Below, piece after piece: positions 336 to 60,956 of a DNA stretch of 64,000 nt. The translations under genes and the position numbers were made by a program. The notes under the pieces are model-generated. The model searched no databases and was not told where the DNA came from. It worked only from the letters and a program-made list of their open reading frames with translations. The stretch covers positions 148,656 to 212,655 of the forward strand of contig MDYQ01000013.1 of assembly GCA_003024175.1 (NCBI GenBank). The letters run 5' to 3'. Position 1 is the stretch's first letter. Every line of letters begins with the position of its first letter. The DNA comes from Planoprotostelium fungivorum (lineage: Eukaryota > Evosea > Variosea > Cavosteliida > Cavosteliaceae).

Positions 336-3300
336 ATGGCAACACCAGCGGAACAGTTGTTTTTAGAGAGTGGAATCGATGAGAGAAGAGCGAAGGAGAC
401 TCTGAAGAACCCCGCCCTCACTCAGGCACTGACATCGACCATCGAGCAGGTATGATCCAAGACAAATGACTCTTCGAACTGAACGTCTAACCATCGAAAG
501 GCCAAACAGTTGAACGAATCGACTTTGAAGACCAACATCAATCTGTATTACCAGGTATCCAAATCATATCGAAGAATCCATGGGCGGATCCTGATTGATA
601 CAGGTTGCCAGTACTCTCCCCGCCAACGCGAGCGCTCACCGTCCCATTCTCGTTCAGTACATTGCCGAGGGAAAGATCCACAAGAACAACATTGAACTCG
701 CCCTCAAGTACATCAAGAAGCTCGGCGCAGATGCTCTCGATACAAACGAATTAGACAAAGAAGCCGGTGTCGGTGAGTCCATACACGTCCATATACATTC
801 CATCGATCTCATCCTAACGTGAACTCATCCCTCTCACAGGTATCGTCGTGACGAAAGAAGACATCCAGAAGGCCGTCGCTGCCGTCATCGACGCCAATCG
901 TCCCCAGATGATCGAGCAGCGATACCGCTTCTTGACCGGCCCCCTTCTCGGCAAGCTGCGTGACACCAGCCCCATCAAGTTTGCCAACGCAAAGGATCTG
1001 AAAGATGAGTTCGATGCACAGATCTTGGCTCTCTTAGGCCCAAAGACAGACGCTGACAACGCGAAGCCCGCCAAGGTGGGATCTTTCTCCGATTATTCTC
1101 GGAATATTCTGCGAATGAACTCTGTGCATCTGACCTACCAGAATTTTCTCAGAATTTACTCTGATATTTCGTAGAAAGAGGCTCCCGCCAAACCTGCCCC
1201 CAAGCCCGAGGCCGCCGCCGTCGCCGCCGCTCACGAGGAGAAGGTGATCCGTCTACACCGTTGTAGATCGTCGAAATTGACGAAAATAGGTCGAAGAGGC
1301 GAAGGAGTTGGTGAGATTCCCTGAGCCCCACGAGAACAAGCAGGCTAAGCCAGAGCTGTTGGCAGAGCATTTAAAGAGGACAAACGGTGTCGTCGTCACT
1401 CGTTTTCCACCGGAGCCTAATGTGAGAGACTTCGTGTGGCACTTTACCTTTCACGACGATCATCACCACGACACATCATGATGACGTCATCACTTTGAAA
1501 TTCGAGAGAAAACTCATTCTGACAGGGATTCCTTCATTTGGGACACGCCAAGAGCATGAACCTCAACTTCTCCTACGCGAAGAAATTCAACGGCTACACT
1601 TACTTGCGTTTTGACGATACCAACCCCGAGGCCGAGAAGATCGAATACATCAACGCCATCAAAGACGTAAGACGAAATTTCACCCGAATTTCCCTCACAC
1701 CGTGTAGGACGTCGCCTGGATGGGTCACAAGCCAGCTCACGTGACCCACGCGAGCGAATACTTTGACAAGTTGTACGAGTTGGCCGTGGAACTCATCAAG
1801 AGAGGAAAGGCATACGTTTGCCACCAGGTCGCCGACGAGATCAAGAAGGGGTGAGTCATCTTTCCATCTACTGTGATGACGTATGATGACGTGTACAGGC
1901 GTCAGGATCGTACCGATTCACCATGGAGAGATCGTCCCGTGGAGGAGAATCTGAGACTGTTTGAAGACATGAAGAACGGAAAGTTCAAGGAGGGAGAGGC
2001 CATCTTGAGAATGAAGCAGGACATGAAGTCAGAGAATCCAGTCATGCGTGACCTCATCGCTTACCGCATCAAGTGAGATATGCTTCTCTCCTCGAATCTA
2101 TTTTCCCGCCATTTCTCCGTTTACCCTTAAATCTCATTTTGGCGGGAAATTTTCCCGCGCGATTTTTTTCGGAGAATTTTCTCTCACCCTCTGACAGGTA
2201 CACACCACACCCCCACGTTGGAGACAAATGGGTCATCTATCCCTCGTACGACTACACTCACTGTCTCAACGATTCGCTGGAAGACATCACTCACTCCCTC
2301 TGCACCCTGGAGTTTGAGAGAAGGAGAGAGTCTTACAACTGGCTCGTGGACGTTCTCGGTCTGTACCGTCCTCTCGTTTGGGAGTGCAGTCGATTGAACG
2401 TGACGCACGTCGTGCTGTCGAAGAGAAAGTTGATCAAGTTGGTCGACGGAAGTGAGTGATCGCATCATCCGACTCATCACATGATATCATCATCCAGACA
2501 TCAACACAATCACTTTCATACCATTCTCACGATATCGTCATCATCCATCATCATCCATCATCATCATCCATCATCATCCATCATCATCCATCATCATCCA
2601 TCATCATCCATCATCATCCATCATCATCCATCATCATCCATCATCATCCATCATCATCATCCATCATCATCTCGACATCATCCATCATCATCTCGACATC
2701 ATCCATCATCATCCATCATCATCCATCATCATCCATCATCATCCATCATCATCATCCATCATCATCTCGACATCATCCATCATCATCTCGACATCATCCA
2801 TCATCATCCATCATCATCCATCATCATCATCTCGACATCATCCATCATCATCATCCATCATCATCCATCATCATCCATCATCATCCATCATCATCATCTC
2901 GACATCATCCATCATCATCTCGACATCATCCATCATCATCTCGACATCATGATGATGACGACACTCACCCATCTCAGAGTTTGTCAGCGGTTGGGACGAT
3001 CCCCGCATGCCCACCATCCGTGGACTGAGAAGAAGAGGTTACACTCCCACCGCCATCAACGACTTTTGCAACCGTGTCGGAGTCACGCGAACGGAGAATT
3101 TGATCGCGTACGAGATGCTGGAGCAGTGCATCAGAGAAGACTTGGACCTCTCCGTTCACAGGGCTATGGTCGTGTTGGATCCCATCAAGGTACGTTTTAT
3201 TTCATTTGATTTCGTTTTATCCTCTCGTGTGGCGATGGACTCGAATCGTGAAAATTTTCTTTTCTGTGTCTCTTTTTTCTTCGAATGTTGACCAATGCGC

Positions 3301-4546
3301 AATATCTGCTTTTACAAATGGAACACTCACCACTTGCATCACCATCATCACCATCATCACCTTCCGATCTTTAGACATTCATCATTCAACAGGTCACCTT
3401 CACAAATTTCACCGGAGAAGACAGAAAGGTCACCGTACCCAACCACCCCCGCGACCCTACCAAGGGCACCCACGATCTCGTATTCTCCAATGTCATCTAC
3501 ATCGAGAGGGCAGATTTCAGGTTAGAAGAGCTGAAGGGCTACAAGCGGCTCGTACTGGGCAAGTCCGTTGGACTCAGCCACGCCGGGTTCTTGGTTCACG
3601 CGAAGGACGTGAAGAAGGACGGAGAGGGTGGGGGAGGCCGGAGTGGCGGGTTGTAGATTGACGGGGGGTAGGTAACGTGACGGAGATTCTCGCGGAGATC
3701 GAGTACCAGCCGGCGAAGAAACCTGCTGCGTTCATCCATTGGGTCAGCGCAAAGAGTGGAACTACACCCGCTACTGCCGAGGTATTTTATTCTATTTTAT
3801 TCTCTCTCTCCTGTCTTCACATTTGATCTCTGTAGGATTCTATTCTTCTTATTTTTTCCTTCTTTGTTTTTCTCTAATTTTTCCCTTCTTTGCTTCTCTC
3901 TCATTTTATTTCTTTTTTATTCATCTCCTGCATCGTCCCATTCATTTCGAAAAATAGCATACCATCTCATTTTATTCTATTTTATTCCTCTAGCGCTTGA
4001 AACTCACGTGACGACAGGTGAGACTGTACGACAAACTGTTCAAGTCTCCCACACTGGCTGCCTACAAGGAAGAGAAGAACAAGTGGTCCACCAGCGGAAA
4101 GACTGCTGCCCCTGCCGAGGACGTTGATGAGGTTGAGGAGGGAGAAGAAGAGGACAAGGCGGAGGATAAGGACAAGTGGCTGGCCGATCTCAACCCCGAT
4201 TCTCTCAAGATCGTCACTGCTTACGTCGATGAGTCCATCGCTGGTGAGTCACATCTCTTTGTCATCACACTTCAACATCATCGACCACATCATCACTTTA
4301 TGACATCACACATCATCAATCACACCTCACATCATCAACACCATCAACACAATCACATCATCATTACATCAACATCACATCTCTTCCATACACGTGATGT
4401 CGATCTGACGATGTTGTCCAGACGTCAAGGAGGGTCACAGAGTGCAGTTTGAGAGAAACGGCTACTTTGTGGTGGATAGGGAGGTCACCTCTGAAGGCAG
4501 ACCCGTCTGGAACCGCACCGTCAGTCTTAAGGAAACAAAGTGGTAA
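336..4546 (+). CDS. QARS1: Cytosolic glutaminyl-tRNA synthetase, 15 exons
   Basis: Class I aminoacyl-tRNA synthetase that charges tRNA-Gln with glutamine in the cytosol. The first ~190 codons match the eukaryotic GlnRS N-terminal RNA-binding domains. A linker then leads to the catalytic core, with the HIGH-type motif FLHLGHAKS (exon from 1526), RFDDTNPE, and the KMSKS-type VLSKRKL just before 2451. The C-terminal beta-barrel anticodon-binding region ends [12 protein letters not shown]. Exons as read: 336-449, 501-554, 604-772, 840-1075, 1175-1243, 1290-1421, 1526-1666, 1708-1850, 1899-2072, 2198-2451, 2978-3189, 3393-3627, 3672-3781, 4018-4243, 4422-4546. Frame is kept across every junction and the gene looks intact. 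Two introns carry the CTACAAC/GTTGTAG motif, and one holds a 400-nt CATCATC minisatellite. An acidic insert ([11 protein letters not shown]) lies near the C-terminus. Confidence 0.95.
1244..1289 (+). repeat. 46-nt intron carrying the palindromic CTACA..TGTAG motif
   Basis: Intron of the GlnRS gene. Positions 1251-1268 read GTCTACACCGTTGTAGAT, a near-perfect inverted repeat. The same motif recurs in introns of unrelated genes at 8694, 10924, 21280, 39758 and 41317. Confidence 0.75.
2530..2953. repeat. CATCATC minisatellite inside a GlnRS intron
   Basis: About 420 nt of CATCATC(CATCATC)n, broken at intervals by CTCGACATCATC. It fills the intron 2452-2977, which lies between the KMSKS exon and the exon coding [10 protein letters not shown]. 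The long Ser/His/Ile open frames here are repeat artefacts. This intron is about ten times longer than most others in the gene. Confidence 0.9.
3628..3671 (+). repeat. 44-nt intron with GGCGGGTTGTAG motif
   Basis: GlnRS intron with GGCGGGTTGTAG at 3645-3656, the reverse complement of the CTACAACCCGCC form found in other genes at 10590, 21119, 42640 and 50819. Splicing here joins KKDGEG to NVTEILAEI in frame. Confidence 0.7.
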
Positions 4547-8463: not shown

Positions 8464-11400
8464 TCATCTTCTGTCTGTGACGTCGTCTTCCGCAGAGTGG
8501 CCGTAGAAACGGACCTCCCTGAATAAAAGTGAATAAAAGTCGATTTCTCCTGTTTTTCGTGACACTATGACAACTGCGTGAACGGATTTGGGACGTAAAG
8601 TTCACCTTGCGTCCCAAATTTGTTTCTGTTCGGCCGCGTCGGCGATCTGACTGTTCCGTGGGCAGGTTGTACACCTCCCAAAGTCAGCTCCATCTACAAC
8701 GTTGTAGACGGATGAACTCACTGTGTTTCTGTGGTGGTCTCCTCGTTTGATTCGTCACCGCAGAAGGTCCAGTGTCTTTCTCTCTCTGTCTCACGGCAGC
8801 CTTCACACCTCCTTCCTCGTTGTAGAACGACGCATTCATCTGTACTCTTCCCGTGGGAACAGTGTTGACGGGAGGTACGTACGAGGTTACGCTCGCGGCG
8901 TACGTCTTCACGTCGGGTGTTACGTCTGGCGCATTTTCTTGTCCTTCTGGGTCACCTCCGGTGGCGTCCGGGATGGGTCCGTGTCCATCTGGGTCCACAC
9001 CGATTTCCGTTACGTTGACAGGTGTCAGATTGACATGTGTCACTACAGTCGGTTGCTCTCTTTGTGGCTGCGGTGGCCTCGGTGGTCTCGGTGTAGTCGG
9101 TCTCGCCCCGGCAGGTTGTAGTGGAGGTGAGGAATGGGGCTGCGGCGTACTCGGTAGCGGCCGGCCCACGTTGGCGGATTTTTCCGCGTCACGTCTGAGT
9201 GTACCACGGTTGGGCAGTTGAGGTGGAGTGTCTGGGCGAGGAGCAGGTGATAGAGATCTCGTCTGTTCTTTCTGTCGTGCGGCTTCGTTGTTCCTGTCTG
9301 GGTCAGGAGGATTCAAAGTGAGAGTGAAGGTGTGGGATATCGATAGGGGGTAGGGTGATGGATGTGATGATGTGATGATGAGATGATGAGATGATGGTAT
9401 GGTTGTGATGATGAGATAGATGAGGTAGATGTGATGATGATGTGCATGATGTGTGGTGATGTGCATGATGTGCATGATGGATGATAGGATGGATGTGATG
9501 GTGCATGCGTGATGATGAGATGTTGGATGTGTCACGATGAACATCACTCGGTGCGAGGATGACACAACGATCGAATTCGAATCTCTGCGAAATTTCACTC
9601 ACTTTGCCGTGTGGGTCATGCTGACGAGATCGTTGTAGAGATTCTTCGTCCTCGCAGGTCTCGCCGGTGGTCCCGGCTTGGCCGCCTCCTCTTCCGTCCC
9701 AATATTTTGTGCCGTCCCAATGTTTTGCGACGGCGGTGTTGGCGGTGGTGGATGGCTCGGTGGTAAGCTGAAAGGCACGAGGGGTGACGAATGTGAATGA
9801 TCACGGTTCATGATGAGGTGATCGTCAGATGATCTAGACAACACACTGTCTCTCGTTTTTCTCAGAACTTCTTTCGGTGGAATGTTTAGAGAAGGCCGTG
9901 ACGCGTGTTGGGAGTGGATTGCGATGGTGGCGTGGGGTTTTCGCTGAGAGGTGGTGAGATGGCGGGTTGTAGATGGACTCACGTCGGCTTTGGGGGTGGT
10001 GGGCACCGATAGGACTCGTGTGTCGCTGGCTTCACCGTGTTGCAATCTTCTCTTCAACTGAAAAAAAAAGTTGAGAATTTTTTAATAGGTTAGAATTTTT
10101 CTTTCGTCAAAAAAAGTCGTGAAACAGAATTTCATCGGTACACAATGGATGATCTCGTTGTAGATGAATTTTTCTCAGAATCTTCACCTCCATCATCATG
10201 TTCTCCGACACTACACCTCTGACGGGTGTCTTCTCTAACACGACGCTTAGGTCCCTGATGACTGGCTTATTGTTCGGTTGTGTCGTTGTAGACGAAGCAG
10301 TCGATTTTCTCTCCAGCATGTTTCGAATGAAATGTTTGACCGAGGTTGCCGTGGTGATGCGAGATGTCTCCGGTGACATCTATTTGGGTCAGATTTGGGA
10401 CTCATTTGAGACGAAAAGATGTCGAGAATTTTTTCTGATGATCATCTCATCTGGATGGAAAATGTCGTTGCAGATGGATATTGGGACCCCGCGCGAAATT
10501 TGGGACTCACCACAGAGTCCGAACTATTCGTCGCCGTGACATTTCTCGTCCGATCCACGTCCAAACTCGCCCGCGCTGTTTCCGTCAATCTACAACCCGC
10601 CGTTCCGAATTCCTACCTCGGTCCGAAGTCGGGTCCGAATCTTTCCGAGTCGTATTCTTTCGGAAATTTTGGATTCCACCTATGATGGAGCTGATGGCCC
10701 CCGTCTCTTGCTGATGTTCCGCCTGCATCGCCATCTCTTGCGTGAAATGTTCGGCTTCCCGCTCGAATTGGACCAACTGCTCGGTTTGGTTCTCTATGCC
10801 CAATATGAATTGATGGTACATCTGACAGTCTTTGAAATTGAAGAGAAACTGTAGAGGTGAGAAGTACATCACGAAAAGGCTCGAGGTAAAAAAAGAAAAA
10901 AAGTCCGTGTACACGTTATCGATCTACAACGATGTAGACGACACACCTTCTGAATACTCTTCGGTTGTTCGTTCTCGAACGCCTCCCGATTGAAACTCGA
11001 TTTTCCAGTCTGACCTCCCACCTTGTGGTCTCTCACTCTACCGACAATGTTCAACCAAAATCGCAGCATTGCCTTCTGTGTCGCCTCCGTGTCGAACGTT
11101 GCGGGACTCGTACACTCTGGGGGAGGTGAGGGAGTGGCGGGTTGTAGATGGACTCACTCTTGGCGGAGACTCGCAGGGGTTTGAGCGCGGATTTCAGTTG
11201 GTTGACGGCGTGGGGGGGTAACATGGACACGTCATTGTTGAACGCTTCGTTCGCGTGGACTCTGTCGATATTTCAGTGAAATTTCATCGTGGAAAAAGGG
11301 CGGGAGATCTTTCATCGCCGCGTGCGGGGAAAATGGCGGGAAAATCCAAACGGTGATACAAAAAAAATGGCGGGAACGCACCTTCCACCGTCTAGATCTA

Positions 11401-13122
11401 CGAAAACGATCTCTTCTATGGGCATTTCCCACAGAGTCTCCAGATTCGAATCCATAACTCCAACGACAAATGGCATGGGTGCACAGCAGTAGTGAATGAG
11501 TGAAGAAGGTAAGAGAGGGATGAGAATGCCCTGAGGAGGTTCGACGAAAACAATAAAATGAAATAAAATAGGAGACGCACCTGCCAGGCGAAGGGATAGA
11601 GAGCCGCGTTGAAAGCCATGACGGTGGAGGATAAGTGGGAAGGGCTGGAGCTGCTAAAAATAACTCTCCTCTCCCACACCATTGAAGCCATGATCTATTT
11701 TTGGCGTCGGCTCGTTGTAGATGGATTATATTCTCATATTTTCTTCACCTTCACGATGGAATCTCTCGTCAGGCTGTTCATGAGGTAAAAGAAAGTCACC
11801 TGAAGGATCGTTACGTTCGTCTACAACGATGTATATGGAGGACTCACGTCACCAAACTCAGAGAAGCCCGGCTTGAGGGACATGTCTATACTTCCAAAGT
11901 CATCGAGCATGAGCTTCGTCTTGTTGCCTTCTTTCGTCTTCAATTGGTCCACGTGATAGATCTTGTCGAGCATGCCTTGTGCTTCCGAGATGGAAGTCGA
12001 CATCTTCTGATGGCTGTCGATGAGTTGTATGGATTGATTGAAGAAGTGAAACCAAGGTCTGCGAGGGTGAGATGGAGGTGATGATGATGAAATGGGTCGA
12101 ATGAGATCGGATGATGGTGGTTTAGAGTTGGTGGAAGATTGAGAAGGAAAAAATGGTGAGATGGATACCTCTTGGAGAGAAAACAGATGGCGGTGTTCCC
12201 TCCCATCAAACCTGAATGAGACGTGAGATGTTAGACATTTGTGCGATATTCGGGAGAGATAGGAGTCAATTGATGGATGAGTGGTGTATGTCGATCACAA
12301 TGTCGTGGCTTGCATATGTGCAATGTGATCCATAACGTGATTGAACTCACCCTTCCAGCGTCTCGCGAATCCAAACTTTTTGCTTCCATCGCTTGCCGTC
12401 ATGATGAAATAGAAGGTGTCTTGCCTGTAGACAATGTAAGATCCCGTATCAATCTTCGGCCATCAAACGGTATTGGTCGATCGAATGAAGATCTATCGCG
12501 TTCGCTCTTCCAGAGCGATGAACATGGACATACCGACATTTCCATATCTATATGTTCCGCGAGTGAAATACGAATAGATAGATGAACGTTCTATAGACAT
12601 CGATTCGTATCCTTACCCCTGCTGCTTCTCTCGCGGATCCGACGGCTCCTCCTCTTCATCTGGGAAACAGAAGAGAGGCACGGCCGACAAATCTTCCGTC
12701 AGCTTCTTATCGTTGCCTCCCGCCGATGGTGGGTACTGATACACGGGATTGGCATTCCCTTGTATGATCTTTATGAAGAAGATGTAACTCCCCTCTCCCA
12801 TGTTTGAGGTCGATTACCTCTATAGAGAAGGACTCCTGTTGCTCTTCTAATGATGTTGCCGAGGCCGCTCTTGTCAAGAGATCGCTGTAGTCCAAATATC
12901 TTTTCTTTTTGGCCTTTTTAGATGGCAATGTGTTCCCGTTTCAGACACTCCACCTCTCAATTGCGGTAGCAGTTGTACCCAAAGGTCTTCCTTTGTCTCT
13001 GTGGACATCGATCTATGTCCCGCCTGTAGACGATGAGCTCACGTGTTCAACTGACGGTCGAATCTATGCACAGAGACGAGCGACGCATGCGACCTCGAAT
13101 TGTCGGACGAACAGAGTGACAT
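8464..13122 (-). CDS. DENN-domain protein (candidate Rab GEF), about 17 exons
   Basis: Minus-strand gene with all three parts of a DENN module, which usually activates Rab GTPases on membranes. uDENN: SYIFFIKIIQ, VPLFCFPD, then FYFIMTASDGSKKFGFARRW (12419-12351). cDENN: GLMGGNTAICFLSKRPWF (12211-12169, 12058-11848), VTFFYLMNSLTRDSIVK (11799-11749), MASMVWERRVIFSS and NAALYPFAWQ (11694-11581), GILIPLLPSSLIHYCCAPMP (11530-11382). dDENN: RVHANEAFNNDVSMLPPH (11261-11158), AMLRFWLNIVG (11116-10947), FLFNFKDCQMYHQFI (10848-10680). The CCAPMPF signature recalls DENND1. A long Pro/Ser-rich tail follows (10575-8464), possibly an SH3 ligand region. The start is weak: ATG at 13122 is a guess because the first exons (12930-13122) need very short introns. 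The end at 8464-8466 depends on the last two splice choices. Confidence 0.8.
8691..8711. repeat. Perfect 14-nt palindrome CTACAACGTTGTAG in a DENN intron
   Basis: Positions 8694-8707 read CTACAACGTTGTAG inside an intron near the 3' end of the DENN gene, shortly after its donor. Identical copies lie in introns of the MFS (21280) and ABCC (39758, 41317) genes. Confidence 0.8.
9350..9540. repeat. GATGATG/TGTGATG-rich simple repeat in a DENN intron
   Basis: Degenerate GATGATGAGATGATG and GTGATGTGCATGATG repeats fill the intron between YNDLVSMTHTAK (ends near 9601) and NNEAARQKEQT (starts 9293). It belongs to the same CATCATC-type repeat class seen in the GlnRS intron. Confidence 0.7.
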
Positions 13123-16606: not shown

Positions 16607-19042
16607 ATGTCGGCCATCAAGAGGGAGAACGATGGAAGTATTAACACTCCCGATTCAAAGAAGATGAAGACAGAGACTTCCTTCAATCCTGTACCTGTTA
16701 AGCCATCTCCGGGCACACAACGTCCACCGTGAGCCCCTATCACATCCTATGTCTAACGTTTCATTCGTCCCATCCAAATATCAATGATGAACATATCACA
16801 GAATCACATCGACGACAAATCTATCCAATTCGGTCCCTCCCGCGAACAACGTCTCCGTTGTTTCAGGCAACGGTGGAGCGAACCCTCCGGTATTGAACCT
16901 TCCTGCTCATTGCAATTGGTTCAAGTTCAATGCCATCCACGACACGGAAAAGGCGGCACTACCCGAATTTTTCGATGAATCATCTCCTTCGAAGACACCT
17001 GCAGTGTGAGTCGTCTCGTCATATCACATCACTTCGTACCGATCCACAATCATCCTGCATCGTGCATCCATCTCTTCAAGGACGAACAACAGAATCGATT
17101 GAACCACATTCACCGTCATCTCATCTGCCTACAGTTATAAAGAGTATCGTGACTTCATGATCACCGTGTACCAACAGAATCCCATGCTCTATCTCACCCA
17201 GACAGCCTGCCGTCGCAACCTGGCCGGAGACGTCTCGGCCATATTACGGTGATGCTCCACTCTCACGATCATCATCACTGACATCTCATGCTCAGCGTCC
17301 ACACTTTCTTGGAATACTGGGGACTCATCAACAACAACATCGCCCCTGATCTATCGATTCCACTTTCCGCTCAACTTTTATCACCCACAGCGAATCGACA
17401 GAAACAGCCAGTCGAACAACTGTTAGACCTGCAGAAGAATGTCAAAAAAGTTGAGAGTCCGGGCGTCGATCTCGTGACACACCAGAACATCTTCCCCGTG
17501 CCTTCTCTGCCCCAACACAGGTAATACTTTTTAAAATTCGAAATTGACCCGTTGTAGATGCTCACTCTGCAAGGTGGATTGCAGTAAGTCGTGGTACACG
17601 AACCTCAACGTCATGAGCACTCACACGTCACTCCTCTTGGGCGCAGAACGTAAAACGCAGATTTCAGAGATCTGCCCCGAATGCTACACCCTCGCGAAAT
17701 ATCCAGACAATCTCAACTCTTCTGATTTCAGCCGAATGGACGCCAGCGTCGATGTTCCATCTACAACGAACGATTGGACGGATCAAGAGACACTGTTGCT
17801 CTTGGAGGTAAGTCTCACATTGAAACCACGGTCGCAATTGAATGAGACGATGACGTCATCAGGGTATAGAGAAGCACGGAGAAGAGTGGGATTCCGTCAG
17901 TGCACACGTTGGGACAAAGACAAAGGAACAGTGCATTCTTCACTTCATTCGCATACCGATAGAAGATCCATTCTTGGAGAATCAGCTCCATCAGGCTCAC
18001 AACTTCCGTATGGGTGAGTTATGATCGATGTGGATGTCATGATGCATGTCATGACGATCATCTCATGTCTGTGCGATCATCGTCTCATCATCTCGATGAA
18101 TATTATCATCTTCTTCATGATCATCATCTAATCATCTCCTTCATGATGATCACCACCTCCATGATCATCATCTAATCATCTCCTACATGATGATCACCAC
18201 CTCCATGATCATCATCATCATCTCCTTCATGATGATCACCACCTCCATGATCATCATCATCATCTCATCCGCGACAGCACCCAACTTGGACGTCGCATCG
18301 GAAGACACCCAGCAGAAGGCCTCCGAGGTCTTCAGTCGAGAAGACATCGCCTTCTCTGCATCATCGAACCCTGTCATGTCCATGATCGCCTTCTTGTCTT
18401 CTGTCATCAGCCCAACCGTCGCTGCCGCTGCGGCAAAGGCGGCAGCCGAGAGCTTCAAGGGACAATTCGGTGAAAAAGTGGAGGGACAGGTGATTTATTC
18501 TATTTTATTGTTTTTGTTGCGACGTATTTTATTTACTTTTATACTTTTTCATGGAAAACTTTTTTTGGGTTATTATTTCTTTCGAGAGGTTTGGGTCTGA
18601 TGATAGAAGGTAAATGAGAGTGCAGTGAATGAAGCTGCTGCTGCTGCCGTTGGTGCTGCTACAGTCAAGGCTAAGGTGAGACGATCGTATTTATCTGCAT
18701 AGAGAATAAAATGAAATAAAACATTTCATCGACAGAATAAAATAGAATAAAATGATTTTCATTGTCATGGACTGATGAAGGACAGCTGATCGCAGAGAGA
18801 GAAGAGAAACAGATATACGGACTCGTATCTAGAGTCTTAGACTTACAGCTCACTAAATTGGAGATGAAGATGTCCTTCTTCAATGACATGGAGGCCATGA
18901 TGGACAAAGAGATGGCACAGGTGATGCATCATCATCGGATGTCTTTGATGACTCACGGTTGTAGATCGAGAGGGAGAGGCAACAGATCTTCATGGACCAA
19001 GTGGCGATCAACGCATCACGTCTGCAGGGAAACAATCAGTAA
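16607..19042 (+). CDS. SWI3/SMARCC-type SWIRM-SANT chromatin remodelling subunit, 10 exons
   Basis: Scaffold subunit of a SWI/SNF-type complex. The order is a basic N-terminus ([10 protein letters not shown]), a SWIRM domain ([46 protein letters not shown]), a zinc-finger-like [13 protein letters not shown]...ICPECY, SANT ([38 protein letters not shown]), and a C-terminal coiled coil ([20 protein letters not shown]) as in SMARCC/RSC8. Exons: 16607-16728, 16802-17005, 17135-17248, 17296-17520, 17558-17807, 17863-18013, 18278-18489, 18619-18675, 18786-18920, 18965-19042. Two 3' splice sites use the GTTGTAG motif. An Ala-rich stretch is encoded at 18420-18660. It looks intact. Confidence 0.92.
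17521..17557 (+). repeat. 37-nt intron ending in GTTGTAG
   Basis: The half motif CCGTTGTAG forms the 3' splice site at 17549-17557, joining PQHR to CSLCK. The same arrangement occurs at 18958-18964 in this gene and at 25604-25610 in the primase gene. Confidence 0.7.
18112..18265. repeat. Tandem repeat of ~40-50 nt in a SWI3 intron
   Basis: About three copies of a unit with CTCCTTCATGATGATCACC and ACCTCCATGATCATCATC in the intron 18014-18277. The expansion is intronic and does not alter the protein. Confidence 0.75.
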
Positions 19043-24572: not shown

Positions 24573-26391
24573 ATGGTCAAAACCATCGAATCGAAGGCGA
24601 AGATCTTTGTCTCGGATTCCAACAAGAGAACAGGAAAGAGTTGGATCAGTAATTATCAGATCCCACCAACAGATGATCTCAGCATCGACGACTTTCAGCA
24701 GTGGGGGCTGAATCGTATTCGAGGTGAGGAGATATAAGGAGATGAAATTCTTACCTTCTCAGTCCTGAAACACATTGACGAGTGCCGAATCAATGGAATC
24801 AGCGGTGACGATCTCAACAGGAAACTGAGAGCGATGGAAAATCAATTCTTACCCCTCACCAATGAAGAGGAACAGAAGAGAGACATTGTCAGCCATTGGA
24901 CACTCCGCCTCGCATACTGCCGCCCGTGAGTCCGTTGCATCATCACCTCTGATGTCTATAGAGCCGATCGTAATTGGTTTGTCACCCAAGAAGGTGCACT
25001 TTTGAAGTGGAGACTGAGCCAAAAGGATGATTACATCACTGAGTACCTATCGGATAACCATCTCGACCATCATTATCGTCTCGTCACGACACAAGAGAGA
25101 GAACCATTCCAGAAGAACCTCAAGTCATTGTTTGGAGAGAAGCCCGTCTACAAACTCCCCTTCGAACAAGCTCTCGACCTCTTGAGACAGAAGAAGGTGA
25201 AACCTCTCATCGTCGATCACGTATCGAGATGGAGATATGTCAACATATGATATCATGCACATCCATGCGATCGATGTTGACCGACGGCAGGTCTTACTCC
25301 ACAACGGTGATTGTTTCGTCAGCAAAGACGATTTCGCATCCATCCTCGTCGCCGCGTTCAAGAATGACCTCCACGATGCGTTGGCCGTGTTCTACAAGGC
25401 TCAGGCCAATATTTTAAACCAGAACGATACCATCGCTCCCTTTGTAGAACACGTGGGCACCATGTACTTTGGTAGTGACTACGGAGTGAGACGAAATTTC
25501 CACGCATTTTCACTGAAATTTCCACAGGTCGACTCGACGAAGAGATCAGGTCAAGTCAAACCCGCAGACGTGAATTGATTTCGTTTTATTGTCCGTTTAT
25601 ACCGTTGTAGATCGACATGCTCGACAAGAGATCATTTCCGATGTGCATGCACAATTCTCACACCAAGTTGCGAGAGACTCACCACCTCAAGCACGCCGCC
25701 AGAATGCAATACGGTCTATTTCTCAAGGTAATCCATCTACAACGAGCCACTCCTGACCCTCCCAGGGCATCGGACTGTCTTTGGAGGATGCCCTCTCCTT
25801 CTGGCGCACAGAGTTCACTCGCGTGATGGGCGTGGACAAGTTTGACAAGGAGTACAGCTACAACATCAGACACAACTATGGAAAGGAAGGAAAGAGAACA
25901 GACTACACTCCTTACTCTTGCATCAAGATCATCAACAACGGAGGGGGCAATGATCACGGGTGCCCCTTTAAAAACTTTGATGCGGTCAATCTGAGGGTCA
26001 ACATGCTTCAGAGAGGTGATGATGATGATGATGATCGGATGATGATGGTGGACAGGTGTGCCTGAGAACGGCGTGAGCGAAGTTTTGACTTTGGTCAAAG
26101 ACCACCACTATCAGGTGATCATCCATCACGATCACCGATCATCATCTCATCATCGATCGATGATCTCATTCTAACGATGACGATCAGATCGCTTGTAGAA
26201 AGCATTTCGAGTGGACTCACCCCAACAACAACTTCCAAGAGCTGAGCATCCAACACCCCAACCAATACTTTGAGCACTCTGAAAAGTTTTTCAACAACGG
26301 AGAACAAGCCAAGGGAGAGAAGAAGACAGAGAAAGATTTCCTCGAAGAGAACCAATTGGAGGAGGCAGATCTGATCGCATTGGAGAATTAA
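24573..26391 (+). CDS. PRIM2: DNA primase large subunit (PRIM2/Pri2), 9 exons
   Basis: Iron-sulfur subunit of the primase-polymerase alpha complex that starts DNA strands. The N-terminal helical domain begins [20 protein letters not shown], then [17 protein letters not shown] and [12 protein letters not shown]. The C-terminal 4Fe-4S domain has [67 protein letters not shown] and the last cysteine in [12 protein letters not shown]. Exons: 24573-24723, 24763-24925, 24962-25196, 25291-25485, 25528-25569, 25611-25727, 25766-26015, 26056-26114, 26188-26391. All candidate cluster cysteines (MCMH, YSC, GCPF, ACRKHF) are kept. The start is the first ATG in frame before the conserved core. Confidence 0.93.
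25728..25765 (+). repeat. 38-nt intron with CTACAACGAGCCA
   Basis: CTACAACGAGCCA at 25737-25749 inside an intron of the primase gene, the commonest form of the intron motif. A neighbouring intron ends in CGTTGTAG at 25603-25610. Confidence 0.7.
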
Positions 26392-38523: not shown

Positions 38524-45306
<6,783 letters not shown>

Positions 45307-45450
45307 ATCATCGTGTCTATGTGTGGTTTTCGTTGGGTTCGTGTCGAGTCTGTCACGTTGCGCTGTCAGCGAACTCCTTTGTCTCCCTGCATGACACAAC
45401 CGCGTTTTTTCGGGCGGTTGTCGCTTCATTTCATTCTCTTCCGCGACAAG

Positions 45451-48659: not shown

Positions 48660-51600
48660 TTACAAGTTCTCTCCTTCTTTCTTTGGCGGTCTCATCTTCC
48701 TCATCACCTCTTTTAACAGATTGAGATCGATGGGCTTCGTCAGATGCAGATCGAAGCCGTGAGATCGGCTCTTCTCGATGTCTTCAGACATTCCATATCC
48801 AGACAACGCGATAGCCTTGAAAGCCTGCCCACAGTCTCCCTTCAACTGCGTGATGACATCGTAACCGGTCCCGTCGGGCAGCCCGATGTCCGAAATCAGG
48901 AGATTAAAATCGTAATTATGTGCCATCTACAACGCGTCAGGTCTCATCGATTTTCATCGACATTTCACCTCCCGGGCAGCTTTGCATGAATCAGCTGTCT
49001 TTAAAATGTTGAAACCCATCAGCTTCGACAAGACACGTCGCATGACCATGAGCGTCGTCTTATCGTCTTCTACCAAGAGTACCCTCCATTCTTTCGGGTC
49101 GAAGTCCCTCTCTTCCTCCACTCCGTTCTCGTCTTCATCGCGATGGAGATGATGGACGTGATGATCGATGCCGTGATGATGATCGTGATGATCGTGATGA
49201 TGATCGTGTGCCGGTTTCGGTTGGGTGAGAGGCAGAGAGAGAGAGAAAGTGCTGCCGAAGCCTCTTCCCTTGGACGAGACAGTCAAGTCCCCGTGGTGCA
49301 TCAACGCGAGAGATTTACACAGGCTGAGACCTTGACTACCATCAGATCCATCTACAACGAGGCACGATGGGGAAATTTCGACGGAAAATCACCCAATCCG
49401 AGGCCACCGAACTTCTGGTTGATGCCTTCTCCTTGTTCGAAGGGTCTGAAGATCTTGTCTGTCGTCTCTTGGTCTATGCCTATGCCATGGTCCGTCACCG
49501 TCACAATCATTTGGTCCCCCTCTGTTGTCATGGTCACTTGTATCTTTCCGTCTGACGAGGGGGTCAGATTGGAAAGTTGGAAAGTCGGACGAGATAGGAA
49601 TGTGTTGGAAAATTGGACACGAGATGAAATGAGATGGTACGAACAAAAGTGAATCGAATGAGATGATAAAAAGAAATAAAACAGCTCACGCTCAGGTGAA
49701 AATTTGATGGCATTTCTCAATAGATTCCAATAGATCTGTTGTAGACGGACCGAATCAGCCTCTATGTCCACCCTGTCGTGTGTGCATGCGAATGTAACCT
49801 CCTGCGAACTATGAGTGATATCGTGTAGACATCCCACCTGATTCTTTTCCGTGAAGTCTATCCTCAAGTTTGAAATGGTGTGGTCCATCAGCTCGCGGCC
49901 GTCGGCCATCTGCGTGTGTAATACCATCTTGTCTTTCGTTGTCTACAACTCGATCAGATCGTGAAATTTCATCGGAATTTGATGTCCATGTCACATCGAT
50001 GTACGAAGAGATGCATCGATGATGTGGAATGCGTCATCAGTTTGAACATCGTGATCTCACCTTTGTAACGTCTAGTAGATCGTCGATGAGTTGGATTTCG
50101 GTCTTGATGTTCTTGTTCATCAAGTTCAGCGTATCTCGGTTCGTTGTAGATAGAGTGTGATCTAATAATATATCTTGTATCATCAACAAGATGGGTGCTG
50201 TCACTCTTCAGCTTCAGATGCCAACGATCACGCACCCAGCGGTGTCCTCATCTCATGAGACAGTGAGGCTATAAATAGATCCTTGCTGTGGTTCACTTTC
50301 TCCGCTTGCAGCCTCAATAATTCTCTGCGATTCGATTCTTTTCTCATTTCGTTCAGCTTCAGCTTCGATATGACTCTCGCTTTGAGATCTAAGGCTGAGA
50401 GGAGGTCAGTCTATAAATAGAACCAAGGTGCAGACCTGAAAACGGCTTCAACATGTAATCGTCCGCTCCCAAGCCTAATCCTAGGTGCTATCGTCGGTCA
50501 GTACGAATTAAAATCATTTTCTTCGATTTTTATGTTTGAATCGTCTCACCCTGCTGTCTTCTCCCGTTCTAGCGGTGATGAGAATGATGGGAATATTTTC
50601 CGTGTGCACGTTCGCTCTCAATCTACAACGAGTCAACCTCATCGATGACGTCACGCCACGTCACCGTTGCAATAATTCAAGCCCATCTACAATCGGCATC
50701 ATGACGTCGGATAATATGAGGTCCGGCTGAATTGTTCCGGGCTTACAAGCATCCAGGGCCTCCTGCCCGTTCCTAGCCGTTTCCATTCTACCGATCTACA
50801 ACGAGTCATTTCCTCCATCTACAACCCGCCCCACCCCCGTCAGTAACTTGCACAGATAGCCTCTCATGTCCGAATTGTCGTCCACGACGAGTATTCGAGG
50901 TAAGATGTCGTTGCTGATATCATCCCCTCTGGAGCTGTGAGCTTGGGAGCTGTGATCACCCTTCGAACTCGAACTGTCCGATGGCAGCATGAGATCGATG
51001 TCTGCGTGTTGGTTGTCTGCGTGGGACAACAGAGGGGAGGGAGCGTGGGGGGAGAGGGTGCAAGGGATCGTGACGCTGAAGGTACTACCTCGACCGGGTA
51101 GAGAAGTGAGAGAAGCCTGAGAGAGTTCAGATGAGATGATGATCATGGTCGATCGCGATCGTGATCGAGTCGTGATCCGATCACGATGCGATGCGATCCG
51201 TCACATGAAATGCGAAATTTCGCTCACTTTTCCCTTGTGTAATTCTACGAGTTCTCTCACTAACGACAGACCGATACCGGAGCCCTTCCATCCGTCAATC
51301 CCCAAACCATCGAAATGTCAATGAAATTTCCACCTCGTGGCTCCTCCCCGCGGCGTGAGCGACTCGATAGAACCTCTCGAAGACTTTCTTCTGGTCCTCC
51401 TGGCTGATGCCGACGCCCGTGTCCGTAACTCCGAAAGTAAACTGGGAAAATCAATCTACAACGCGGGAAGATATCGCGTGAGATATCGTACCTCTCTGTC
51501 GTCTTGTTGGATGTTGACGGTGATGGAACCACTCATGGTGTATTTGAGGGCGTTGGACCTGTAATTATTTGGCGGGTTGTAGTGGGGGGATAAGATGAGA

Positions 51601-53903
51601 AGAGAGAGTTGACTCACATCAGATTGTATACTATGGTCTCCCAGATGTTGATGTCTGCAGCAATCTACCATCGTGTCAATCAAACATCACATCGTGATCA
51701 CCATCGACGATCGCATGATCATCATCATGATTGACGATGATCATCATCATGATTGACGATGATCATCACATGATCTCATCATCACTCACGATCTCCTCCC
51801 TCTCTGACTTGTTCACGATCAACTCTAATCCAGACTTCTCGCACGCCGAACGGAAGATGGAGACAAAGTCCATGACTGCACCGCAGAGATTAGTGGGCTG
51901 CATGTTGAGCTGCATTCTCCCCGTCTCGATTCTCGTGAAGTTGAGAAGGTTGTTCACCAATTTGAGAAGTCGACCGGAATTACGCCGGATCAATTGTAGA
52001 CTGTCTTCGACGTGGAGGATGGGAGTATTCCTGGAAGATTCAGCGTGGAAGATGGCTCGTTGTAGAACGACGTGATTCCATGTAGGAATGCGTATATGGA
52101 ATATTTCATCGTGTCTGTATATACAGGTGATATAGATATCATCTGTAGAATATACGATATGTATTACGATCATTATCATGCATACAAATCATATTTGATA
52201 GAAGATTCAATATCATCAGACACAATGAAAAGATACGTCCTATCATGATAGAACACATGATGGACACTCTTAATATTCACCTGTCCAGTTGTAGAAGGTC
52301 ATCCAGAGGCCCCAGCATGAGAGTCAGGGGCGTTCTGAACTCGTGAGACATGTTCGAGAAGAAGGCAGTCTTCTCCCTGTCCAATTCTGCCATGGCTTTC
52401 ACTCTCTTCGCTTCTTCCTCTCTGTTCTTGATCTGAACGAGGACCGTCGTGATCTGTCGGGCGTCAGATCTATAAATAGATCGATGACGTCATCACACCT
52501 GGCTACCGATGGATTGTAGAAAGACGGAATAGTGATGATCTAACTCCCTCCATGGGTTGATGCCGATCATGATCACTCCCAATTTTCCCATGGGAAGGAT
52601 GAGTACCTACCGTACGGGTCAACGCGGTCGACGTGGAATATCCTAGGAAATTTCGAGGAAATCTCGATCAAATATCACCTGTTGGATGCGACGCGAGTGG
52701 GGTTCGGCTGTGATCGGTTGATCTCCCTCGTTCAGATCGAGGATCTGGAAAAATCAGCCTCGTTGTAGATCGATGACGTCATCGTACGTCATACCTTCAT
52801 TTGTGATGTCTTAAAGACCTCCCTGACCGCATTCGTCAGGCTCCACTTGGGGTCTGAATCGGTGTAGTCCTGATCTAAAAATAGAACGTGAGGAGGGATC
52901 GGATTTGGCGGGTTGTAGTTCGACTTACCTCCCAGAGATATCTTCCTGTGGCACAGACTCTTACCGATAGAGGATGTGTAGTTGCCGGTCAAGACAAGGT
53001 GGTCTCCTGAGCGGTTGATGCAATAGAATAAATTGAATGGGATGCATGAATATTGGGACATGATCTGCATGGAGTTGTTGATGGCATCATTCCTCGTCTT
53101 CTGTTGTAATTGGGAGAGCTCTTTTAGAACGTGTGTGTCTCCGTGATTGAAGACGTAACTGAGGTGGGATGATTAGATGACGTGGTCATATGAAGATGAA
53201 ACATACGAAGTAGTCTCGTAGACGGTGATGAGTACTGCAGTAATTTCATTTCCATTTAAAAGTGGAGAGAAACACCACTGAAGGTTCGTCAACATCGTCC
53301 ATCTTTCAATGTACATGTTTCATCTTCTCACCGATAAGTATCTCTCCTTCGTGCTCCCTCCGTCTCCACTGTTAAGAGGTAACATGACGTCTTCGGAGAG
53401 GTTGGGCTTTCCATCTGTCATCACCCCCTTTAACATTGGACCGATGGTCGGCCAGATCTCTTGCCAGACGTGTTCCGCTGGATGCGCATACTTTTGTGGA
53501 TGTTTCTGTCCCATGACCGATCGATAGTGATCGTTATAGACCTGTTTCGACGTAAGAGTTGGAAATGTCACACATGTACGCGATGCAAAGACTCTAGACT
53601 CACAACGAGCAGGTCGCTTCCTAACATGAGACTGGATGCCCATTGCGAGGTTAGCATGCTGTCTATCGCCGAATGATATGCAACAGGCCAGGTATCCCTC
53701 GGACCAATAGAGGTTTCGTGCCAAGGATATTCAATCATCATCCTCCCCGTCTCACCCGTCAGCTGTGCGATCTGTTCCGTCGATAGTCGACTGAAATTCG
53801 ACCGATCACTCCTTCCATCTCGAGACAATGTCAGCATCTCTCCTCGATCATATCATCCATCCTCTATACCTTCCGTCTTTCTCTTCTTCGTAGCATGTTC
53901 CAT
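48660..53903 (-). CDS. Double hybrid histidine kinase (sensor-HisKA-HATPase-REC-HisKA-HATPase-REC)
   Basis: Very large two-component sensor, at least 15 exons. Start ATG 53903 ([12 protein letters not shown]). The N-terminal sensor region looks PAS/GAF-like: [49 protein letters not shown]. First kinase: phospho-acceptor [20 protein letters not shown] (near 52350), [20 protein letters not shown], ATPase [20 protein letters not shown]. First receiver: [20 protein letters not shown] and [19 protein letters not shown] (Asp). Second kinase: [12 protein letters not shown] (near 50250), ATPase [24 protein letters not shown]. Second receiver: [20 protein letters not shown] and [20 protein letters not shown], to TAA 48660-48662. 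Phosphorelay His and Asp residues are present in both halves. At least ten introns carry the CTACAAC family motif. No transmembrane segment is obvious, so it may be cytosolic. Confidence 0.92.
49140..49225 (-). repeat. Coding simple repeat giving a His/Asp-rich linker in the histidine kinase
   Basis: GATGATCGTGATGAT-type repeat read on the minus strand as a run of His and Asp codons ([12 protein letters not shown]...HHVHHLH) between the second ATPase domain and the last receiver. It resembles the CATCATC repeat class of introns but here lies in an open exon. Confidence 0.65.
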
Positions 53904-57890: not shown

Positions 57891-57986
57891 CCTCTGGTCA
57901 TAACTGTTGGGACTCCATGGAACCAGGGGGTCAGACCCTTTCTGACCCACATCATCCTGACTCAGTCAGATGCTCCAGATGCCATA

Positions 57987-58406: not shown

Positions 58407-60956
58407 TTATGTATCAAAGGTACAAAGACTTGAACTGACAGCTGAAGTCCATTTCCTCTTCTCTCCCAAGAGCAGATCATCAAAAGAAGAACTTCTGTGC
58501 CTCTTGACTCTCTTGTACAGCAATGCAGGTGTCCCGTACCTGTCTGTGATCTCCACAGCCTTGCCTGCGCTGATGCCCACCAATTGCATCAATTGCTTTG
58601 TGAGCACATCCCTCACGCTCAAGTTTTTTTATCTACTTGCCGCAGAGCTGAATTCTGAGAATGTCAAGTTGGTCATGTGCTGTGTCTTTCCTTTTGTGAT
58701 ATTGCTCTGCAGGTGACTTGTCATTCCTGCAAGATAATTTGCAGTGTCTTCTTGACTTGTGCTACGCTGGATTGAATGAGATGATGAAATATACATCGCC
58801 TCACGTGAGTGAAAAAGTTTTCAACACATTGGGTCTTGAGGAGGGGTGTTCAAAACCTGCGTATCGAGCATCCGTTGTGTTTAAACCTGATTCAAACGGT
58901 CGATCTGATGCATGTGATGACGTCGATGGAACGTGATGTGGGTGTAGAACCGATGAGATCGTGATGTGATGTGATAACTTCTGCGAGATAAATTATGTTG
59001 GTGATGCCACATCTCTTCAATCGAAACTTCTGCTCCTTGTATGGGCCATCTTCCACGGATGCCGCCAGGTCCTCCATCTACGCAGGATCAGTCGACATTG
59101 ATCTTTATCTTCACCTTCTCTCTCTCCCGATGTAACTCAACACGATCTCTTCTTCTCCACCATCAGGTGACCGAGCGATGAAATCCCCCAATTCTAAACT
59201 TCTCTTCTCCACCTATTCAAATGAGTCTGTCGTCATCGTATAAGCATGATCCACTCTCACATTCACGTCTAATCTCTTCAGACCTGTCGATGATTTAGAG
59301 ACGTATAGGTGGAGTGTGTACTCACAGTTGAAGACCACCCTTCAATTCGTCTCCTCTGATCTCGCAAATATCGACGATCAACACCTCACTTTGTTAATTC
59401 GATTCACCATCGTCCATTTGAACACACCACTTCCCACGAGGTGACATCTCTCTCCGGTGAGGAAAACACTTCAGGTTGTCTCATCGCAGAGGTGTCATCA
59501 TCATCACGATCGTGATGATCATCGTGATCGCGATCGGCATCGGCGATCATCTCACCTCTTGACTCTCTCTGCTCGTGCGTCTCCCCTGCTTACTCTGAGG
59601 TGATACATCGGGAGAAGGTCCGCAGATGACATCTTTCCCTTCGTAGCGTACAACTCCCTCGACAGATCCAATCCAGTCTCTGTGAGAGAGAATCTGGATC
59701 CTTCTTTCACCACGAGTTCTTTCTTGATCAACGTGTTGACGCTGGAAGTGAAATAATCAGAGTGTGTCGGTCCATGATGATCAGAGATCGACATCATCGT
59801 GATGATGAGATGATCATCATCACGATGGATCACTCACTCTGTGTGCCCATGGGAGTGTCTGAGAAGGGTTGTGACGTCCCACAATCTACTTCTTAGACAT
59901 GAATCCCGTGTGCTCCTCCAATAGAGGGTCCTCGAACATGCAGATGAGAACGGCCCAGGCTCCACTGCGGAAGGCGGGACAATAGCCGGCCCTATCGATC
60001 GTTAGTTGGCTCGTTGTAGACGGTCACCACTTTTTCCCGCCCGATTTCTTCTTCGGTCTCTGTGTGAGGTTGACTGTCTCCACTTCTTCCTCTCTTGAAT
60101 GGAATGTTCATCATTGGATGCACTCTTTGGAGGTGGACTCAACTTCGTAACGTGTCAAATCAGAGGGTGTCCTTCACTGGACAGGTGGGTGACGTTGGTT
60201 ACGGGGATATTGTGGGAGCGCGTCTCATTCGTTTACGACCTCTTCAGCTCCACGACGGTGCTGGTCAGTCGGTAGTTGCTCTGTAGAACTGGTGGTGCGG
60301 TCGGGCTGACGTAATGGTTGGATGTGCTTCAAGAAGAGAACAGACCTGACGAAGATGAGCACGAGGACCGTTAGCGCACGTAGATATTCTCACCAGTAGA
60401 TTGTCGTAGCCAGAGTCGATGAAGAGGGAAGGTATTGACTCAGTTTGAGATCATCCAGCCATTCTTTCACGTCAGAGGGATATCAGTAACCTGAGAGGAT
60501 GGGTGAGGAGAGATGTGATTCGAGGTGTGCGCCATTCTGACTGCTGTAAGATTGGACGATCTGACTGTTTTCGATTGGCTGGATTGACTGGCGGGGGCGT
60601 TGGTGATGAGGGTGTCTTGATTCTGAGATGATCCCATCCTTACAACAGCTGATCGATTGAGGCGGCGATCTTCGGACCTGAAAGGGTTCATGAAGGCAAT
60701 AATCATGACTCACCGATGCCGTTCAATTTGGTTGCTTCTTTGCCGCTCGTGATCACATCGGGATGATTTCTTACGCTCTGTATCGCCTGCGATAACGTGA
60801 CGAATAAACGAGACCGACGCGACCGTGGTGGTGCACCTTGGCGAATGTGGAGTATCTCTTGTCACCATAGCTCTGCGCCTGTTTCTCAGACTCGAGACGC
60901 TGAAGACCCTGCAAGAGTCTAGCGTTTCCCGGATTCTTCAGAGGTAGTGGGGGCAT
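58407..60956 (-). pseudogene. MUS81: MUS81 structure-specific endonuclease gene with nonsense codon and frame break
   Basis: Catalytic subunit of MUS81-EME1, which cleaves branched DNA. N-terminal HhH region from ATG 60956: NPGNARLLQGLQRLESEKQA, VRNHPDVITSGKEATKLNGI. YCPAFRSGAWAVLICMFED and the winged helix VNTLIKKELVVKEGSRFSLT. Nuclease: [79 protein letters not shown]-terminus: DTANYLAGMTSHLQS, LTFSEFSSAASR, SVRDVLTKQLMQLVGISAGK. An in-frame TAA follows SSAASR (58629-58631). No intron phase joins IGRERR to MEDL, so a 1-nt frame break at the ERK active-site motif is likely. The gene may be inactive, or the sequence carries errors. Confidence 0.8.

Follow-up and report, generated by a model that had tools for sequence, protein, structure and literature searches.

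Introners, as described by Gozashti et al. (2022, PMC9860276), are families of 5 to more than 2,000 similar sequences; evidence of target-site duplication was given for 49 of 130 families and evidence of terminal inverted repeats for 72 of 177, and 81 of the 130 were without target-site duplication evidence. The words Protostelium, Amoebozoa and Acanthamoeba do not occur in the main text of that paper. Here, we analyze a window of 64,000 nucleotides from Planoprotostelium fungivorum (GenBank assembly GCA_003024175.1, contig MDYQ01000013.1, positions 148,656 to 212,655, forward strand), in which a first-pass annotation had noted that the word CTACAAC (sense) or its reverse complement GTTGTAG (antisense), with CCGCC or GAGYCA extensions, recurs in short introns. 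It had proposed either introner-like elements spreading as new introns or a common intronic signal recognized by a factor. The deposited genome is said to be mislabelled and to be actually that of Protostelium aurantium (PMC10639083). Many similar sequences, short introns, unrelated genes, both orientations and some palindromic forms are features that this family has in common with introners (PMC9860276). We find that the CTACAAC core has a footprint with defined edges, is nearly symmetric between the strands, prefers introns and clusters by gene. At slightly better than an even chance, we suggest that the sites are those of a double-strand DNA-binding protein acting from gene bodies.

Abundance, intron preference and footprint of the core

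Counted on both strands, the window contains 57 CTACAAC/GTTGTAG matches, against a mean of 3.97 and a maximum of 10 in 100 dinucleotide shuffles. The over-representation on both strands claimed in the first-pass annotation is thus confirmed, and a copy lies within 6 nt of each of its 24 example coordinates. The top over-represented 8-mers of the window were GTTGTAGA (49 versus 1.7) and CGTTGTAG (36 versus 1.05); CTACAACG was present in 36 copies versus 1.05 under an order-2 Markov model. In the 36.86 Mb of assembly searched, ATCTACAACG has 7,984 copies (4011 + 3973 by strand), compared with 62 (35 + 27) for its reversed control. Genome-wide counts were 750 for the palindrome CTACAACGTTGTAG (control, 0), 2042 for CTACANNNNTGTAG (control, 169), 113 for the 17-mer GTGAGTCCATCTACAAC (control, 0) and 485 for CTACAACCCGCC, which includes the CCGCC extension (control, 4). 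The GAGYCA extension was found 18 times in the sampled loci, six of these within a single repeat-like part of L006 that has no intron signals; both extensions are real. An early search pattern, GAGYCACTACAAC, had placed the extension on the wrong side of the core. The window is comparatively rich, with the core in 35 of 194 predicted introns versus 12 of 225 introns in ten stretches sampled by contig number. A strand polarity along contig 1, where the listed matches past 188 kb were all on the plus strand, was ruled out by minus-strand matches there in L046, L047, and L050.

Our own gene models assign 40 of the 57 window copies to introns (17 in sense, 23 in antisense), 13 to exons, every one in sense, and 4 to intergenic DNA, the window comprising 14.9 kb of intron, 32.1 kb of exon, and 17.1 kb of intergenic DNA. 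At least 2 of the 17 non-intron copies actually lie in introns, namely 52912 (an intron of the published model) and 20720 (a probable intron, by inspection). That nearly all copies are intronic, as stated earlier, was too strong; that most are intronic stands. Densities were determined in an unselected set consisting of the window, the ten contig-number stretches (L009-L018), and six ABC-transporter loci (L059-L064), the last chosen as paralogs and not for the motif, two of their contigs having appeared among the CTACAACCCGCC matches. The loci that had been selected because of the motif (L001-L008, L019-L058) do not enter the density, halo, unselected-footprint, and clustering figures but do enter the junction test, the count of exons beginning with AT, the folding test, and the subclass logos. 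Core counts in the unselected set were 80 for introns (39.1 kb), 15 for intergenic DNA (50.8 kb), and 39 for exons (104.6 kb). Restricting the count to cores with fitting flanks, by a flank model derived from the intron sites, leaves 72, 3, and 13 copies, or 1.84, 0.059, and 0.124 per kb, respectively, an intron density about 31 times that of intergenic DNA. Equal motif density in exons or intergenic DNA, named beforehand as one observation that would speak against the proposal, was not found.

When the 80 unselected intron copies were aligned on the core in one orientation, a shared footprint of about 18 bp, TCNATCTACAACGNGNCA, emerged, with T-5, C-4, A-2, T-1, G+7, G+9, C+11, and A+12 as its positions. 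Outside -5 to +12, information stayed below 0.2 bit, and no similarity from splice site to splice site was found among these motif introns. The introns take three forms: sense, for which GTGAGTCCATCTACAACCCGCCACTCCTGACCCTCCCAG is a composite from several introns, antisense (GTGAGTGGCGGGTTGTAGAT... or an acceptor reading ...TGACTCGTTGTAG), and palindromic. With palindromes excluded, flank frequencies for the 26 sense sites and the 46 antisense sites were 0.92 and 0.91 for T at -1, 0.69 and 0.80 for C at -4, 0.62 and 0.70 for G at +7, and 0.77 and 0.72 for C at +11, respectively. Logos by orientation and subclass contained at most 0.5 bit outside the footprint in five of six sets, including loose C-rich tail positions of 0.2 to 0.5 bit between +13 and +25 in the sense CCGCC set (20 sites); the sixth, the antisense CCGCC set (9 sites, three tandem duplicates among them), reached 1.3 bits at -7 and +15.

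The core is present in exact form rather than surrounded by variants. In 572 unselected introns, 80 exact copies compare with a mean of 3.4 over the 21 one-mismatch words, the commonest of which is CTACATC (17); by single strand, the figures are 30 versus 1.9 (sense) and 50 versus 1.5 (antisense). Summed, the one-mismatch words number 72 in 39 kb of intron versus 140 in 51 kb of intergenic DNA, a lower density in introns. If the copies were neutral, surroundings as divergent as these should go along with many one-mismatch words. Exact cores amid unrelated surroundings, together with this small one-mismatch class, point to selection or to a process preserving the core exactly.

The arrangement of the core relative to the splice sites depends on its orientation. 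In short introns, sense cores (18) are placed closer to the 5' end than antisense cores (36; p 0.01); 12 of the 36 antisense cores are the acceptor itself and none is 1 to 11 nt from it. For acceptors contained in GTTGTAG, the following exon begins with AT in 17 of 25 cases versus 21 of 109 for other TAG acceptors (Fisher's test, 5e-6), and in 10 of 15 cases in the unselected loci. The footprint thus extends into the exon, and a footprint spanning the splice junction points to recognition before splicing. Judged from sequence, TGACTC before GTTGTAG, the GAGTCA extension reversed, is a plausible branch point ahead of the acceptor. CTACAAC itself, which could pair with U2 small nuclear RNA with the A bulged, was considered as a branch point and rejected, given that more than half of the copies (50 of 80) are antisense and that 11 of the 18 short-intron sense copies lie 6 to 13 nt from the 5' splice site. 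Inverted repeats are central (CTACAACGTTGTAG) and not at the intron termini. Compared with shuffled sequences, palindromic introns fold with a mean z of -1.2 and near-palindromic ones with -2.3; single-core introns (-0.32 and -0.46) fold no better than other introns (-0.35), which led us to reject RNA hairpin formation as the shared principle. For inverted repeats with 5-bp arms, introns show a 1.0- to 2.0-fold enrichment across nearly the whole range of loop lengths, with 2.0-fold at loop 0 and likewise at loop 8; the intergenic figures are 0.8- to 1.4-fold.

Gene clustering and tests of intron gain

Core introns gather in certain genes: the sum of squares was 429 versus 197 (standard deviation, 21) under permutation, a value reached in 0 of 2000 permutations (genes with coding sequences below 300 nt were dropped). 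The core is present in 10 of 26 introns of the histidine kinase, in 8 of 18 of the gene at 8602-12801, and in 7 of 29, 7 of 25, and 7 of 23 introns of ABC-transporter genes, and is absent from the related ABC-transporter genes in L060 (0/26) and L064 (0/23). A kinase gene in L066, a locus fetched for its richness, has the core in 9 of 14 introns. Codon bias and gene length were considered as causes of motif richness and may contribute to it: rank correlations were rho 0.27 (p 0.11) with GC content at third codon positions and rho 0.29 (p 0.09) with gene length. Core introns are scarce in the last fifth of genes (4/71 versus 91/496) and lie absolutely farther from both gene ends (p 0.008 and 5e-5), which is what a preference for long genes would produce.

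Among other words, GAAATTTC is itself clustered by gene (p 0.0005) and is found in 17 of 165 core-free introns of 15 core-rich genes versus 4 of 211 introns of 24 core-free genes (p 5e-4). Clustering was weak for CCCGCC (p 0.046) and not seen for TGACGTCA (p 0.22) or CATCCATC (p 0.62). Over 36 genes, GACGTC (0.38, p 0.02) and TTTTATT (0.41, p 0.01) correlated in rank with the core. As further intron-specific words in the unselected set, we observed ATGACGTCA (36 in introns versus 0 intergenic, both strands), GAAATTTC (37 versus 2), and CATC-type repeats such as CATCACATC (60 versus 3).

Intron gain was assessed in seven ABC-transporter loci, the window and 6 of 10 other contigs with ABC-transporter matches. 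L060 and L062 were excluded from the position test as too divergent (14 to 22% identity to the rest); L062, whose frame as translated has stops, was also left out of the density test and kept in the clustering, halo, and footprint figures. Among the alignable paralogs, shared positions are occupied by 9 of the 21 core introns and by 31 of the 75 introns without the core (p 1.0). Introns at shared positions are mostly unrelated in sequence between paralogs, often with the core in only one: L061 has the core in 7 of 23 introns, and L064, 66% identical and with many positions in common, in none of 23. At one position shared by L059 and L061 (55% identical), both keep the words TTTCATTCGA(A/T)TGAA and GTTGTAGA. 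Comparison of junction identity in 140 core introns and 582 others gave no signal of target-site duplication (p 0.70), and intron density did not differ between 14 core-rich genes (6.2 per kb) and 24 core-free genes (6.5 per kb; p 0.94).

A second near-palindromic intronic module, GTTTCATTCGATTGAAAC, adjoins the core; it is similar in introns of L061 and L059 at alignment position 194 and occurs also in L023 and, partly, in L016. L065 (2277-8233) holds a tandem array of related membrane-protein genes of 74 to 89% DNA identity, in which a similar core intron is kept at four places. A reverse-transcriptase-like open reading frame, Ty3-like by eye, lies at 5477-5968 (-) of L009, in a GC-poor part of contig 1 with one motif copy in 10 kb.

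Weighing of the possible readings

Reading on both strands, occurrence as half-site and as palindrome, sharp edges, and gene-level dosage are the behavior of a protein-binding site, and near absence from intergenic DNA leads us to regard it, on balance, as probably an intragenic regulatory or chromatin site. CTACAAC would be the core of the 18-bp double-stranded site, often doubled to the palindrome, and selection would keep this site, whichever its orientation, in the short introns of certain genes. A putative sequence-specific DNA-binding protein would dock as monomer or dimer inside transcribed gene bodies and regulate or mark those genes alongside at least one further intronic word (GAAATTTC). 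Introns might thus offer free space for sites, with 5' donor, branch point, and TAG acceptor arranged around each site according to its orientation. It is tempting to speculate, albeit tentatively, that short introns are slots for a gene-body code of strand-blind words (CTACAAC, GAAATTTC, and perhaps TGACGTCA and CCCGCC) to which dedicated proteins bind, marking or licensing particular genes, and that this role helps keep tiny introns; such a code would also imply, equally doubtfully, that regulatory sites sit in introns and are kept out of promoters.

Several results weigh against a DNA-binding site. With 3 flank-matched copies in 51 kb of intergenic DNA, the site is rarer there than an ordinary transcription factor would lead one to expect, as its sites should occur in promoters too, and core introns show no bias towards gene starts (mean relative position 0.46 versus 0.48 for other introns, p 0.45, 71 versus 496 introns). 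Flank composition differs between the orientations with p<0.05 at 4 of 22 positions (-8, -2, +10, and +16), two of which, -2 and +10, are inside the footprint, and the position preference in short introns, differing by orientation, could fit two RNA signals. GAAATTTC and the core correlate weakly in rank over 36 genes (rho 0.26, p 0.12), and the core-free-intron test was not significant for TGACGTCA (p 0.14) or CCCGCC (p 0.19). Finally, almost every exonic core is in the sense orientation, and Tyr-Asn, Leu-Gln, and Thr-Thr codons are found among these cores, with all three frames represented; in 12 motif-rich genes, the exons contain 21 sense copies versus 3.5 after synonymous shuffling and 0 antisense copies versus 0.28. 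In exons of 24 motif-free genes, sense cores also exceed the shuffle (9 versus 4.5), which indicates that the expectation is too low, and some exonic cores in motif-rich genes are missed introns, at least 1 of the 21 (52912).

An explanation at the RNA level, which we consider unlikely but worth keeping in view, would place the signal in the pre-mRNA: splicing or RNA-binding factors would recognize CUACAAC close to the 5' splice site and GUUGUAG at or close to the 3' splice site, or the two words would pair, as hairpins in palindromes or from one intron to another. The coupling of orientation to position in short introns would fit such signals, as would the better-than-shuffled folding of palindromic and near-palindromic introns, the modest intronic excess of inverted repeats, the 2042 copies of CTACANNNNTGTAG against 169 in the control, and the almost exclusively sense exonic cores; the position preferences, the palindrome folding, and the general inverted-repeat excess are what give this explanation its remaining weight. 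However, two unrelated RNA motifs would not be expected to share what is largely one 18-bp flank code in both orientations, single-core introns fold like other introns, and position coupling is expected regardless, because GTTGTAG brings a TAG acceptor with it.

Two further explanations involve the spread of DNA, and we regard both as improbable. Introner-like mobile elements creating new introns, perhaps old and partly decayed, would account for thousands of copies on both strands in unrelated genes, for the 113 copies of the 17-mer GTGAGTCCATCTACAAC without any in the control, and for the CCGCC subclass, whose similarity exceeds 18 bp (the C-rich tail in sense, 1.3 bits at -7 and +15 in antisense); CTCAC/GTGAG could then provide a branch point or donor, depending on orientation. 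In the unselected set, however, similarity stops roughly 5 bp to the left of the core and 6 bp to its right, a halo of mutated copies is absent, and introns at shared positions are mostly unrelated in sequence between paralogs. With neither an excess of unshared positions nor a target duplication nor a difference in intron density, the earlier proposal of introner-like elements is disfavored. Alternatively, an 18-bp unit (a recombinase or endonuclease target?) might have spread by gene conversion or repair into existing introns and been kept identical without function for the host. Exact cores amid unrelated surroundings, core-free paralogous counterparts of core-bearing intron positions, strong gene clustering, and the modular right halves CCGCC, GAGYCA, or GTTGTAG behind one core would be consistent with copying of this kind, but intergenic DNA, which should be equally open to it, is about 31 times poorer, and flank positions are graded as in a binding site, not block-copied. 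We know of no DNA copying process of this kind. The other earlier proposal, a common intronic signal recognized by a factor, is supported and sharpened to a gene-clustered, nearly strand-symmetric footprint of 18 bp, from which we infer the factor.

Core introns of the window and relation to known systems

Gene models came from a hidden Markov gene finder of our own, for which the window and the fetched loci served as training data; the motif was not a feature, but the same introns supplied the intron body model, which could have a slight bias toward the words they contain. Predicted introns have a median length of 48 nt, the commonest class being 40 to 49 nt. Published protein models, which may be predictions themselves, were compared for the primase (471/471 residues mapped), the ABC transporter (1677/1690), and the histidine kinase (1295/1535). 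Our primase prediction for the window is identical to PROFUN_04042 of Planoprotostelium fungivorum at all 471 residues, the next-best listed primase relatives having 48% identity. In these three genes, 16 motif introns were identical, 3 were in the published models only, and 3 in our own only; the respective numbers for non-motif introns were 34, 19, and 10. Introns ending exactly at GTTGTAG are confirmed by published models at 25570-25610, 39735-39771, 40048-40092, 48927-48968, 49943-50060, and 50796-50834.

Ten window pieces were compared with Pfam and six had a match, one of them (HisKA) below its cut-off. There was none for the DENN, SWI3, ABCC, and MFS pieces, and the MUS81 piece matched only a helix-hairpin-helix family. 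Of the gene names given earlier, ABCC agrees with the published protein's name, whereas DENN, SWI3, MFS, and MUS81 are names from the first-pass annotation. Rfam and ARAGORN gave no match within the window. The published ABC-transporter model (window 39130-46407, 1,690 amino acids) has introns reaching 46281, into the neighboring gene of our own model, and two genes may thus be wrongly fused in the database. At 59992-60040, a modelled core-carrying intron with a GC donor belongs to a doubtful short gene model beside the helix-hairpin-helix gene.

Table 1. Introns of the window that carry the CTACAAC core, with window coordinates and the source of each intron
Position	Strand	Feature	Basis
1244..1289	+	46-nt intron, antisense core, near-palindromic left arm (CTACACCGTTGTAG)	gene model
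3628..3671	+	44-nt intron, antisense core + CCGCC extension	gene model; tRNA-synthetase Pfam match on exon 2052-2456
8694..8721	-	palindrome CTACAACGTTGTAG; modelled 28-nt intron short, doubtful	gene model
9944..9982	-	39-nt intron, sense core, GTGAGTCCATCTACAACCCGCCA	gene model
10058..10187	-	130-nt intron, sense core	gene model
10576..10616	-	41-nt intron, antisense core + CCGCC extension	gene model
10849..10946	-	98-nt intron, antisense core within near-palindrome	gene model
11117..11157	-	41-nt intron, sense core, GTGAGTCCATCTACAACCCGCCACTCC	gene model
11695..11748	-	54-nt intron, sense core	gene model
11800..11847	-	48-nt intron, antisense core	gene model
17521..17584	+	64-nt intron, antisense core	gene model
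18921..18964	+	44-nt intron, GTTGTAG at end, next exon begins AT	gene model
20709..20748	+	probable 40-nt intron, sense core + GAGCCA, absent from own model	boundaries by inspection
21096..21132	+	37-nt intron, sense core + CCGCC	gene model
21272..21317	+	46-nt intron, palindrome	gene model
25570..25610	+	primase 41-nt intron, acceptor within GTTGTAG, exon begins AT	identical in PROFUN_04042
25728..25765	+	primase 38-nt intron, sense core + GAGCCA	identical in PROFUN_04042
36622..36695	-	74-nt intron, antisense core	gene model
39735..39771	+	ABC-transporter intron, palindrome at acceptor	identical in published model
39871..39909	+	ABC-transporter intron, antisense core + GAGCCACTC (GTGAGGGGGGAGTGGCTCGTTGTAG)	identical in published model
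40048..40092	+	ABC-transporter intron, end = TGACTCGTTGTAG	identical in published model
41304..41344	+	ABC-transporter intron, palindrome	identical in published model
41782..41885	+	ABC-transporter 104-nt intron, sense core + GAGCCA	identical in published model
42634..42674	+	ABC-transporter intron, sense core + CCGCC	identical in published model
42834..42889	+	ABC-transporter intron, antisense core next to GTGACGTCAC palindromes	identical in published model
48927..48968	-	histidine-kinase intron, end = CTGACGCGTTGTAG	identical in published model
49331..49392	-	histidine-kinase intron, antisense core; own model end 49352	published model
49943..50060	-	histidine-kinase 118-nt intron, GTTGTAG acceptor	identical in published model
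50623..50664	-	histidine-kinase intron, end = TTGACTCGTTGTAG; own model 50569-50705	published model
50796..50834	-	histidine-kinase intron, two antisense cores (CCGCC type, GAGTCA type)	identical in published model
51442..51491	-	histidine-kinase intron, antisense core	identical in published model
51559..51617	-	histidine-kinase intron, sense core + CCGCC	identical in published model
52031..52280	-	histidine-kinase 250-nt intron, sense core + GAGCCA	identical in published model
52745..52794	-	histidine-kinase intron, sense core next to CGATGACGTCATCG	identical in published model
52854..52928	-	histidine-kinase intron, sense core + CCGCC, absent from own model	published model

Among the listed titles and abstract openings of the open-licence literature on introners, Protostelium introns, intron-mediated enhancement, and Periodic An/Tn Clusters (PATCs), we found no description of the motif. 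If the proposed reading is true, thousands of protist introns of about 40 nt hold DNA-level information that is unrelated to splicing, in a subset of genes and with nearly none between genes, which would bear on why compact intron-dense genomes retain introns. Look-alike families of short introns are easily mistaken for introners; the tests used here separate an introner from a functional site, and they favor the site. Unlike introners, the amoeba introns share only about 18 bp, are without a target-duplication signal, and do not occupy newer positions, and a single 10-mer of the motif has 7,984 copies.

PATCs are phased A/T runs located in introns of a subset of genes. The amoeba core resembles them in its clustering and intron preference, being likewise found in introns of a gene subset, but its footprint is one defined 18-bp sequence and not an A/T run. 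In Caenorhabditis elegans, PATCs are described as non-coding DNA able to protect expression from silencing (PMC7725773). The plant downstream GATC motif (Voichek et al. 2024, PMC11525189) is also a DNA motif in the transcribed region, and its dose-dependent action has a parallel in the several core sites per amoeba gene; it acts downstream of the transcription start, whereas the core has an unrelated sequence, shows no start bias, and is placed in introns as the rule. YY1 sites in human UbC provide a case of sites for a DNA-binding protein that raise expression from within an intron (PMC3680475). The amoeba core is intronic as well, yet those sites lie in the 5' untranslated region intron of one gene and the core in internal introns of many genes.

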